Below, in pieces: positions 47,502 through 63,550 of a stretch of 64,000 nt of DNA (position 1 is the first letter of the stretch; each line of letters opens with the position of its first letter). Below the pieces are notes generated by a model. That model had not been told where the DNA came from. It did no database searches and was given only the letters and a program-made list of their open reading frames with translations. A program made the position numbers and the translations under genes. This DNA comes from Limihaloglobus sulfuriphilus (GTDB lineage: Bacteria; Planctomycetota; Phycisphaerae; Sedimentisphaerales; Sedimentisphaeraceae): positions 3,596,001 through 3,660,000 of the forward strand of contig NZ_CP019646.1 of NCBI RefSeq assembly GCF_001999965.1, written 5' to 3'.

Positions 47502-47583
47502 TGCACGCTAAAGCGTGTACTCATACTAAGTAGGTCAACCGTCCTCGGTTGACATTGAAATGGCAAGCGGGGACGCTTGCCCT
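47502..47583. repeat. REP-like hairpin cluster at the left IS edge
   Basis: GCACGCTAAAGCGTG followed by tactcatac, GTAGGTCAACC...GGTTGACATTG (47530-47557) and GGCAAGCGGGGACGCTTGCC (47562-47581) are consecutive hairpins. The truncated IS110 copy begins 3 bp after the last one, so a hairpin may have been the insertion target. Confidence 0.6.
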
Positions 47584-47584
47584 G

Positions 47585-48084
47585 ATATGGAACGACCTTT
47601 GTCAATAGTTTTAATGAGATTATATTTACTTTTTTTTAAATTTTACATATCTTATTTTAATGACGCATGATAGCGTGGGATTCTTCGACGTTGATTCAGT
47701 CTGATATACGTGGATTAGCTTTTGGCCAGAGCCGACATTGAAATACTCCGTCGCAAACCTTGCTTTCTACGGGCATGAGTCAGACTTACCGATAAGGCAT
47801 ATCTGTCATATAGGACAATCGCAAGTGGTTTTTTCGTACCCACGCCACCATTTGTCATGTTTTTCTGTATTAAATTTTAAATGTTTTTTTCCCAGGGTGA
47901 TAAAAAGTATATGAACTAAACTTTCTGCGGCTGAGCCTGTTTTCTTGCGTAATACTGGGTTGCTGTGAACCATATGAACCCGGCCAGCTCTCTGGCAACT
48001 GCGATGTTGGCCTTTACCAGAATCTTGCCCCTGGCCCGAAGGTACCTGTGCCGGTAACTCAAACGCTGCCCGGCCCTGTCAGCT
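47585..48084. mobile_element. Truncated IS110-type copy (transposase 3' part and end)
   Basis: 500 bp that match 48086-48586 with a single T-run length difference. It contains the left end ATATGGAACGACC and the last ~160 bp of the transposase reading frame, then stops abruptly at tcagct, where the intact copy begins. The rest of this copy is not found beyond the intact element. Confidence 0.9.
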
Positions 48085-56266: not shown

Positions 56267-56553
56267 ATGATTCTTTGACTAAAATATTATGTTTAGAATA
56301 ATTCCAGGTTGCTGGCCTGCCGGGGGTATTTTTTATGAATACCGGCAAACCTGATTAAAGACAACAGTATCTCTTTTTAGAGGTCTTTGTAAAGGATAAA
56401 ATACCAGCTTGAGGCTGCGTCTTAACAAGCCGGTAGGAGTTCACGCTTTAGCGTGTATTTTTTTAACAAGCTGAAGCTTGTACTCTTACGGCGGACTCTT
56501 ACTTAGCTCGTGGTCTTACTCTCGCGGGGCCGGAATTTCTGACGTGTTTATCT
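56267..56553. repeat. REP hairpins between topoVI B and ndk
   Basis: GTAGGAGTTCACGCTTTAGC (56433 on, 23 bp) and AACAAGCTGAAGCTTG followed by tactcttac (56465-56489) are the two REP hairpin types flanking the RAYT, here in opposite orientation to each other. They lie between two leftward genes. No ORF. Confidence 0.7.
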
Positions 56554-60837: not shown

Positions 60838-62322
60838 TTAGTAGAGCTTTCGCATCTTTGCTGTTGGGATGTTCATTTGCTGACGGTACTTAACGATTGT
60901 TCGGCGGGCTATCTTGATGCCTTTCTGTTCGAGTTTTTTCATTATCTTCTCATCGCCGAGCGGTTTTGATTTGTCCTCGTTGTCGATAATTTCTTTTATA
61001 ACCGCCTTTATAGAATCGGTGCTCTGGCTGCTGCCGTCAGCCTGTTTCTGGGCGGTGCTGAAGAAATCGTGCAGCGGTATTACGCCCCTGTTGCACTGCA
61101 CGTATTTCTCTGCCACGGCTCGGGATACGGTTGAGACGTGCATTTCTATCTCCTCGGCAATCGACACCATTGTCAGGGGTTTAAGATGCATTATGCCCTT
61201 TTCGAAAAACTCCTGCTGGCGGTTGACTACCGCCGTGGCGACCTTCATCAGCGTCTGTTTACGCTGCATAATCGCCTCTATCAGCCAGTTGGCGGAGTTT
61301 ATATTGCGTTTAAGATAATTCTTCGTCTTACCGTCAACGGTTTTATCACTTGCCATGCGGCTGTAATAGCTGTTTATGTACAAATCAGGCAGGCTCGTGT
61401 CCGCCAGGCGCGGCTCATATACGCCGTCTTCATTTTTTTCAACGATAATGTCCGGCCTTATCGCCAGGTTAGGCCCCTGGCTGAATTTATCGCCGGGGGC
61501 AATATTGAACCTGCCAAGTTGTTTTATCGCGTCTGCAATTTCTTCGGGTGCTTTGCCCAGTTTTTTGGCGATATCAGCCCGCCGGTTGGCCAGCAAAAGC
61601 TCGTAACACTCTGTGAGTATTCTTCTTGCGGTTTCGAATCTCCGGGGCTCCTCCTGGTTGTCGATCTGGATTTTAAGGCATTCGGGGATGTCACGTGCGC
61701 CGACGCCTGCCGGCTCAAGCTGCTGTATCATCTCTAATGCTTTTTCGCAGGTCTTTCTCTCCAGCGGTTCATTTTCGTAGCCGCGGAGCTCATCGAGGCT
61801 GCCGGTGAAATACCCCTTGTTGTCAATCTGCTCAAGTATCGCGAAGCCCGCCTCGAGAAGTTTTTCGTCCTCGGTTGTCACGCTCCATTGCCGCACAAGG
61901 TACTCGTAAAGAGAGATATGGGTATCGGCGGTATTCTGAAGAGCCTCGTATTTAGGGTCTTCGTCCTGGTTTACGTTTCGTGTTTCACGGATTGGCCCGG
62001 TCTGGTTGACGGCGTCTTTGAAACCCTCATCAAGGCTGTCAAGCCGGTTGAAATCGTCGACGCCGTCGGTGTTATCGACAACGAGGTCTCTTTCGTCATA
62101 ATTTTTGTCCGGCACCTGGTCGGAATTGTCGGCTTCGGGGGCGTCAGGGTCAGCGTATTCGGCTTCGAGTACGGGGTTTTTGCTCAGCTCGGCATCTATT
62201 CTCTGCATGAGTTCCATCGCGGGAAGCTGGAGAATCTCCATCGACTGGATCATCTTGGGAGCCAGAAGCATCTTCTGCTCCATCCGCATCTGGTTGCCTA
62301 ACTCTAGTCTCATTGCGCTCAT
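60838..62322 (-). CDS. rpoN: RNA polymerase sigma-54 factor
   Basis: A 494-residue sigma-54. Region I (MRMEQKMLLAPKMIQSMEILQLP, activator contact), acidic region II (~res 50-130), core-binding region III, and the DNA-binding C-terminus with the RpoN box ARRTIVKYRQ (~res 472). It recognises -24/-12 promoters and needs enhancer-binding ATPases. PEP-CTERM regulators in other bacteria are often sigma-54 dependent, but no such promoter was confirmed in this window. Confidence 0.96.
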   Translation of the reverse strand: MSAMRLELGNQMRMEQKMLLAPKMIQSMEILQLPAMELMQRIDAELSKNPVLEAEYADPDAPEADNSDQVPDKNYDERDLVVDNTDGVDDFNRLDSLDEGFKDAVNQTGPIRETRNVNQDEDPKYEALQNTADTHISLYEYLVRQWSVTTEDEKLLEAGFAILEQIDNKGYFTGSLDELRGYENEPLERKTCEKALEMIQQLEPAGVGARDIPECLKIQIDNQEEPRRFETARRILTECYELLLANRRADIAKKLGKAPEEIADAIKQLGRFNIAPGDKFSQGPNLAIRPDIIVEKNEDGVYEPRLADTSLPDLYINSYYSRMASDKTVDGKTKNYLKRNINSANWLIEAIMQRKQTLMKVATAVVNRQQEFFEKGIMHLKPLTMVSIAEEIEMHVSTVSRAVAEKYVQCNRGVIPLHDFFSTAQKQADGSSQSTDSIKAVIKEIIDNEDKSKPLGDEKIMKKLEQKGIKIARRTIVKYRQQMNIPTAKMRKLY

Positions 62323-62778
62323 ATTATCATGCCTGTACTGTTATGCAAAAGTTTGTATCTTGACTGATTGGTGTGGCTTTCTTCTGCCTTCTAAAAGATT
62401 TACCACATTAATTTGTGCGCATTATAACCATAGCGAATGCTATTTTCAACCCATATTGCAAAATTCATACCCAAACCGTTAGTTTTTTTGTAATAGTTAA
62501 AGCTGCGTAAGAGTACAAGCCCCGTAAGAGTACAGGCTTCAGCTTGTTAAGTAAAAAAAGCACGCTAAAGCGTGAACTCCTACAGGGATAGTAAGAGTCC
62601 AAGCTGCGTAAGAGTCCAAGCTTCAGCTTGTTAAAATGCAGATAATGTATAAAATAGAAGCACGCTAAAGCGTGAACTCCTACAGGGAACTCCTACAAGG
62701 AGCTTTTACGGTGAAAGTAAGAGTACAAGCTTCAGCTTGTGTATTTATAAACAATTAAACGTTTAAACGATCATCAGG
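62323..62778. repeat. REP/BIME cluster upstream of the RAYT gene
   Basis: Several alternating copies of the two hairpin types: GTAAGAGTCCAAGC/AGCTTCAGCTTGT (62608-62634 and 62716-62740) and GCACGCTAAAGCGTG followed by aactcctac (62559-62583, 62660-62683). The 76-bp stretch 62608-62683 recurs downstream at 63422-63497 with one mismatch. Confidence 0.85.
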
Positions 62779-63378
62779 ATGTATGACTGGCGAAAAATGA
62801 CACCGCAGGAACGGGCGGAAACGCTGCGGTTGCGGAAACAGCTTATACGGCCCTGGCACAGCCCGCCGCACTGGGACAGCGGGGAGAGCCGGTACTATAT
62901 AGTTTCAGCGGCATGTTATGAGCACAAGCATATCGCGGGTGCAGTATTTTCACGGCTTGCGATGCTTGAAAAGAGCGTTCTGGAAATCTGCGAAAGCTGC
63001 TCTGAGAAGACAATCGCATGGAGCATTTTGCCCAACCATTACCATGTTCTGGTGAAGACCGAACATATTACGGAGCTGCGATATTCGCTTGGACGGATGC
63101 ACGGCAGGCTTTCGCGGCAGTGGAATTTAGAGGACAACTGTCTCGGGCGCAAGGTGTGGCACAACTGCGTAGAGCGTATTATAAGGAGTGAGAGGCATTA
63201 TTGGGCAACGGTGAATTATATTCACCATAATGCCGTAAAGCACGGGTTTGCTCAAAGGTGGGAACAATGGGTTTTCTGCAGTGCGGTACAATTTCTGAAC
63301 GAGGTTGGAAGAGAGAAGGCTAAAGAAATCTGGAAAGCGTATCCTGTCCTTGATTATGGTAAGGAGTGGGATAAATGA
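62779..63378 (+). CDS. REP-associated tyrosine transposase (RAYT, Y1_Tnp)
   Basis: A 199-residue HUH-superfamily nuclease related to IS200/IS605 TnpA. The HUH motif is HYH at 87-89 (ILPNHYHVLVKTEH), and the nucleophile tyrosine is probably Y147 (ATVNYIHHNAVKHG). RAYTs mobilise or maintain REP palindromes. Its flanks carry several REP hairpins, and a 76-bp REP pair brackets the gene, so the system is likely intact. The N-terminal MTPQERAETLRLRKQLIRPWHSPPHW is typical of RAYTs. No terminal structure of an autonomous IS was seen. Confidence 0.92.
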   Translation: MYDWRKMTPQERAETLRLRKQLIRPWHSPPHWDSGESRYYIVSAACYEHKHIAGAVFSRLAMLEKSVLEICESCSEKTIAWSILPNHYHVLVKTEHITELRYSLGRMHGRLSRQWNLEDNCLGRKVWHNCVERIIRSERHYWATVNYIHHNAVKHGFAQRWEQWVFCSAVQFLNEVGREKAKEIWKAYPVLDYGKEWDK

Positions 63379-63550
63379 TTGTAATAAGTAAGAGTCCAAG
63401 CTGCGTAAGAGTACAAGCCCCGTAAGAGTACAAGCTTCAGCTTGTTAAAATGCAGATAATGTATAAAATAGAAGCACGCTAAAGCGTGAACTCCTACGGT
63501 GAACTCCTACGGTGAACTCTTACGGGGAGCTCTTACGGGGAGCTCTTACA
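63379..63550. repeat. REP/BIME cluster downstream of the RAYT gene
   Basis: gtaagagtccaagctgcgta..., GTAAGAGTACAAGCTTCAGC (63422 on), GCACGCTAAAGCGTG followed by aactcctac (63474-63497), then three short gaactcttacgg/gagctcttacgg units. The run ends just before the ribosome site of the next gene. Confidence 0.85.

Follow-up and report, generated by a model that had tools for sequence, protein, structure and literature searches.

A REPtron with a variant guide tag and an apparent history of horizontal spread in a planctomycete genome

The biochemistry of REP recognition by RAYT (TnpAREP) proteins comes mainly from three gammaproteobacterial systems. The REP of Marinomonas sp. MWYL1 (REP-Mb) consists of a GTAG tag, 2 nt, a perfect 5-bp stem and a TTTA loop, in which T12, T13 and A15 are essential and position 14 is free; the sequence of the stem has little effect, whereas the cleavage dinucleotide is picked by the tag through cross-pairing (PMC8266576). 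A second point of comparison is subclass 2.8 of the TnpAY1 proteins, which was represented only by Cyanobacteria in the sample of Quentin et al. 2018, with relatives from other phyla in the nr collection mentioned there, and whose REPs are long and canonical with a GT[AG]G tag (PMC6006769). The first-pass annotation of the locus described here held RAYT-REP pairs to be known mainly from gammaproteobacteria. By count this is true, but GTAG REP families in Planctomycetes and Verrucomicrobia were published in 2013 (Di Nocera 2013, PMC3733652), and RAYT proteins have been recorded in many phyla (PMC6006769). RAYT-REP pairs, planctomycete REPs and short REPs with a TTTA loop are already published; new, as far as the literature consulted shows, are a uniform REP design over many phyla, an RGAG tag, a possible coupling of this tag to residue 132 of the protein, tandem repeats of the REP head and a duplicated REP-bounded unit.

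The RAYT gene and its REP hairpins

The stretch of DNA analysed here, hereafter the window, comprises 64,000 nucleotides of a complete chromosome of 3,868,357 bp. It contains a RAYT/TnpAREP gene on the + strand, with its ATG at 62779 and its stop codon ending at 63378, which encodes a protein of 199 aa and is present as a single copy in the host genome. The divergent gene upstream is rpoN (sigma-54; 60838-62322), and the intergenic region shared by the two genes holds the upstream REP array. The protein matched Pfam Y1_Tnp at 1.5e-5, passing the cut-off, and NCBIfam REP_Tyr_transpos at 65.9 bits (E = 3.5e-18), under the 80-bit cut-off, which is a curated threshold and not a defining feature of the RAYT class. 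The structure of E. coli TnpAREP (4er8) was a match by sequence and also the top PDB match of the AlphaFold model (mean pLDDT 90.3). Pfam, NCBIfam (below its cut-off), the 4er8 sequence and the model agree, and the gene is a TnpAREP/RAYT gene. As first annotated, the translated ORF carries its HUH motif at residues 87-89 (H87-Y88-H89) and the catalytic Tyr147; together with N151 (Y+4), these are invariant across 35 aligned members of the subfamily. Trp127-His128 and Glu132 lie between the two motifs, and in the alignment to E. coli TnpAREP residues W127, E132, R136, Y147 and N151 correspond to W94, E100, R104, Y115 and N119. Besides the NCBIfam score, one feature counts against the RAYT reading: at the Y---NP signature, which has NP in most relatives, the window protein reads Y147-IHH-N-A (YIHHNA) where the YIHHNP of the relatives would be expected.

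Of the seven REP hairpins around the gene, five stand upstream (A+ B- A+ B- A+) and two downstream (A+ B-). Type A (GTAAGAGTACAGGCTTCAGCTTGT), reading GTAAGAGTACAAGC-TTCA-GCTTGT, is found on the + strand at 62524-62547, 62608-62631, 62717-62740 (with the start codon of the RAYT 38 nt on) and 63422-63445. Type B (GTAGGAGTTCACGCTTTAGCGTGC), reading GTAGGAGTTCACGC-TTTA-GCGTGC, is found on the - strand at 62560-62583, 62660-62683 and 63474-63497. A and B form REPIN-like pairs on either side of the gene, at 62608-62683 and 63422-63497 (+), which are the left and right copies of the 76-bp repeat with one mismatch that had been noticed at first pass. Its orientation is direct, not inverted, and it forms part of a longer direct repeat, 124 nt in length and 90% identical. 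The hairpins are bordered on their outer side by hairpin-less tandem copies of the head, made of GTARGAG and part of the REP, with periods of 13 and 17 at the RAYT. Copies of 17 nt lie on the + strand outside the first A (62507-62523; GTAAGAGTACAAGCCCC), outside the second A (62591-62607) and, twice in a row, outside the downstream A (63388-63421); copies of 13 nt lie on the - strand outside the B of 62660-62683 (62684-62696) and, four in a row, outside the downstream B (63498-63549). In sampled stretches of the host genome, head-only copies were 5' of a REP in 19 cases and 3' of it in 3. As guesses at how they arose, we offer slippage or repeated nicking at the head. The span initially assigned to the RAYT/REP unit, 62559-63545, cuts it short, since with heads and hairpins the unit extends from about 62507 to 63549. 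Its parts look intact, as had been proposed. In agreement with the first-pass pairing of the RAYT with its own REPs, we read the locus as a REPtron, in which a RAYT/TnpAREP gene is accompanied by the REPs cognate to it, and assign this reading a probability of roughly 0.8.

Among described systems, the locus resembles REPtron Mb (TnpAREP group 3 / subclass 2.5) in REP geometry, in a TTYA loop that fits the free position 14 and in having REPs near the gene. Unlike the proteins of subclass 2.5 (DH[LF]H, WQ, YI[VI]ANP), the window RAYT reads NHYH, WH and YIHHNA; moreover, the tag is RGAG instead of GTAG, and the hosts of the subfamily are mostly non-proteobacterial. Compared by description, the protein is similar to those of subclass 2.8 (NHYH, W[YH], YIHYNP, median 199 aa; Quentin et al. 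2018, PMC6006769): NHYH, WH, the YIH-N pattern, the length of 199 aa and the single copy match, whereas YIHHNA as a whole differs, and the RGAG tag and stems of 5-6 bp of the window REPs are unlike the long canonical REPs of this subclass. With E. coli TnpAREP (RAYT group 2, PDB 4er8) the window protein shares the fold, HUH, the Tyr and the correspondence of W94/E100/R104 to W127/E132/R136, but identity is 17%, and E. coli REPs are long, bulged and strictly GTAG. The families of Di Nocera 2013 (PMC3733652) likewise feature tagged palindromes, pairs in opposite orientation, a REP-flanked RAYT and planctomycete hosts; they differ in carrying GTAG at the stem foot, where the window REPs have RGAG at the aligned position and GTAR a few bases further out.

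A short REP design and its tag across the subfamily

We found 38 further members of the subfamily, in at least seven phyla, and some genomes hold two or three of them. Eleven of the 38 come from named MAGs of Acidobacteria, Calditrichaeota, Lentisphaerae, Verrucomicrobia, Kiritimatiellaeota, a Beggiatoa relative and an unclassified bacterium; the others are from Planctomycetota, and sampling of the remaining phyla is uneven. Nearly all readable flanks displayed the same REP design, consisting of a head (GTTYR[G/T]AGT in most relatives, GTARGAGT in the window), 1 nt, a 5-bp stem whose sequence varies freely and a TTYA loop. A hairpin search over 37 RAYT loci that presupposed neither head nor loop sequence showed that at 27 of them the two flanks of the gene share a 5-bp/4-nt hairpin with an identical stem (shuffled expectation: 0.0), and 118 of the 131 same-stem hairpins obtained in this way had a TTYA loop or its complement. 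In a first REP extraction with unconstrained stems, 108 of 132 matches were paired at all five positions. From the matches with at least three paired positions, 28 representatives were chosen with the head and loop pattern, so that head and loop conservation in this set is by construction; 96.4% of their stem cells were paired, versus 53.8% in shuffles, and double (compensatory) changes occurred at all five stem pairs. The number and order of the flanking hairpins differed between loci. At one locus, where two genomes of one genus (G796 and G702) have their RAYT at the same place (L173 and L174), flanking REP numbers differ, indicating that REP number turns over there. A further genome (G580) harbours two RAYTs (L165 and L177) with 77.5% nucleotide identity, the homology stopping at the ORF ends; neither the stem nor the tag (GGTG vs GGAG) is the same in their REPs, as if these had been exchanged or had changed fast.

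TTYA loops and free stems are what the biochemistry of REP-Mb predicts. By analogy with that system, the window enzyme, a Y1 HUH nuclease, would most likely act on single-stranded DNA and would recognise a REP by its unpaired head (with the tag RGAG in the canonical GTAG place) and by the TTYA loop on its short stem, the sequence of the stem being irrelevant provided that pairing holds. Its putative activity on the cognate REP would consist of nicking and rejoining the DNA beside the tag via Tyr147, and REPs and inverted REP pairs may thereby be copied or moved over time into intergenic DNA.

The tetranucleotide in the canonical GTAG place is AGAG or GGAG (RGAG) in these REPs of the host genome, which lack the canonical GT[AG]G at 0-2 nt before the stem, a point against the REPtron reading; in relatives this place is occupied by GTAG, GGAG, AGAG or GGTG, GTAG being the tag of other subfamily lineages. 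Position 2 of the tag agreed with residue 132 in 35 of the 37 members that have Glu or Asp there (G with Glu132 in 21 of 21, T with Asp132 in 14 of 16), some of the tags having been read by eye from the flanks; L041 and L042, with neither residue, stand outside this count. The two exceptions were a decayed gene (L038) and the most divergent member (L161). This rule had been framed on the first 13 sequences, before the alignment of 24 more that served as a check. A clean case is found within one genome (G302), in which the nearest neighbours L155 and L164 combine Asp with GTAG and Glu with GGAG, respectively. On a tree built without the tag and residue columns, the tag changed at least four times and residue 132 at least three times. 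Given that these changes provide only two to three independent comparisons, we do not claim the rule as proven and consider a coupling of Glu/Asp132 to the tag, as suggested by the sequences, to be possible. It cannot hold outside the subfamily, since E. coli TnpAREP has Glu100 with GTAG. A wider proposal is more tentative, and we lean against it rather than for it: within the subfamily, the guide tag may have undergone natural switches between GTAG and RGAG (also GGTG) in step with residue 132, which aligns with the GTAG-contacting E100. By the cross-pairing known from REP-Mb, such switches would retarget the cleavage dinucleotide, and the REP-RAYT-REP unit itself would be mobile between loci. 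The subfamily, whose very short REPs follow a single design in many phyla and show natural changes at tag position 2 paired with a change at one protein residue, offers ready-made enzyme/substrate pairs for addressing how a tag selects the cleavage site.

History of the REP-bounded unit

The tree places the window RAYT beside G092, Calditrichaeota and Acidobacteria (93/91) and away from the other planctomycetes, and the four genomes of the same family as the host have neither the RAYT gene nor the REP. This patchy distribution fits horizontal transfer, by which the gene and its REP borders would have been acquired within a subfamily spread over several phyla. Plasmid and viral collections, searched for a transfer vehicle, yielded 0 relatives of the RAYT. 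Judged from sequence data, the locus is best described as a REPtron of a known kind with a variant tag, which has probably spread horizontally and may be mobile. Synonymous sites were saturated between the window RAYT and L044, and selection was assessed in the congeneric pair L173/L174 in place; a dN/dS of 0.15 indicates purifying selection on the RAYT in this pair.

The work on REP-Mb states that there is no evidence for movement of the RAYT gene itself (PMC8266576), a question on which a pair of units in G094 bears. Both are arranged as A+ C- RAYT C+ A- and share 72-79% identity up to the outer REP heads, beyond which their flanks are unrelated. Each of the two RAYT genes is damaged, one having lost the HUH region. 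Two units that sit at unrelated places yet share their borders at the outer hairpins, as well as the two or three members in several genomes, would also be produced by an autonomous IS200/IS605-type insertion sequence. Its terminal hairpins would be REP-like by chance, and its leftover solo ends would be the dispersed hairpins. We regard this as unlikely. IS200/IS605 elements (class 1.1) are characterised by Y---Q and several near-identical copies, whereas the window protein has N151 at Y+4 as in TnpAREP, its gene is present once in the host genome, the copies in multi-copy genomes are diverged (about 68-79% nucleotide identity) rather than near-identical, and the number and order of flanking hairpins vary across loci.

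REP copies in the host genome and in relatives

Pattern searches, on which all genome-wide REP counts given here are based, returned 59 matches with up to three mismatches in the host genome versus 0 for the reversed-pattern control. Only four of the 59 were inside ORFs of at least 100 aa and 55 were outside, compared with 70% inside for random positions in the same stretches. The RAYT is flanked by REPs that are also dispersed in intergenic DNA, as is usual for its class. Most REPs of the host genome belong to sub-types other than the RAYT's own, which also speaks against the REPtron reading. The A+B sub-type of the RAYT accounts for nine copies, seven at the gene and two in a pair at 56433-56489 (+; B on the + strand, A on the - strand), about 6 kb away. 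Given that all of these are within 7 kb of the RAYT, recent dispersal by the RAYT itself is small and local. A composite repeat with at least 14 copies, among them one at 47503-47585, places two canonical GTAG REPs (GGCAAGCG-TCCC-CGCTTGCC and GTCAACCG-TCCT-CGGTTGAC) beside a GTAAGAG-type hairpin, and the copy at 7.18 kb belongs to a third sub-type. The copies listed by the first-pass annotation at 7.18, 47.5 and 56.4 kb thus all exist, but only the pair at 56.4 kb is of the RAYT's own sub-type. Its claim on REP dispersal is likewise borne out only partly: of the 59 copies, nine are of the own sub-type and 14 others are inside the separate composite repeat.

The canonical GTAG REPs of the composite repeat have 8-bp stems and 51 matches genome-wide. 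Another resident Y1 gene was rejected as the owner of this dispersed family: none of the four other Y1 genes is flanked by such REPs, and the family therefore looks orphaned. One of these four, at 3.03 Mb of the host genome (L122; 178 aa), carries YIKSQKQHH like TnpAY1 subclass 1.2 and has flanks without REP. Subclass 1.2 is reported mainly from Cyanobacteria and Bacteroidetes.

Each of seven genomes selected because their RAYT lineage has the CCGCC stem contained 10-262 REPs of this type, compared with 0 in eight genomes lacking that lineage, two of which are from the order of G240. In the same order, six REP-rich genomes without a close RAYT, all from one genus (g49), contain 6-49 REPs (G090, G091, G095-G098); G097, which is 99% complete, has 19. 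Either REPs persist after loss of the RAYT, or the MAGs miss the gene. REPs as abundant in close relatives lacking any RAYT had been named beforehand as evidence against the pairing, and these six genomes partly provide it, yet the four genomes of the host's own family lack both gene and REP. The association of REPs with the RAYT is strong but not strict. The REP-rich genomes, and the 14 copies riding with a GTAG-REP pair in the composite repeat, would also suit hairpins that act mainly on RNA or on chromosome structure (as terminators or mRNA stabilisers) and owe their spread to recombination or to another RAYT, the RAYT beside them being incidental, but this is very unlikely in view of a REP design that flanks both sides of nearly all readable RAYT loci across phyla, a strand-specific head conserved beside the hairpin, and stems that change from genome to genome along with the RAYT lineage.

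Beyond the REPtron of the window, the host genome (G000) holds an array of eight REPs with three stem types and a spacing of ~330 nt at 22.6-23.4 kb (L114). The RGAG-type REP had 0 matches between 0.379 and 2.163 Mb, or 46% of the chromosome, and 29 clusters elsewhere; the unrelated GTAG-REP family had one weak match only between 0.391 and 2.163 Mb. GC skew, calculated for twenty sampled stretches, changed sign near 0.95 and 3.2 Mb. Taken with the REP-poor region of 0.39-2.16 Mb, these sign changes indicate that REPs seem to avoid the terminus side of the chromosome.
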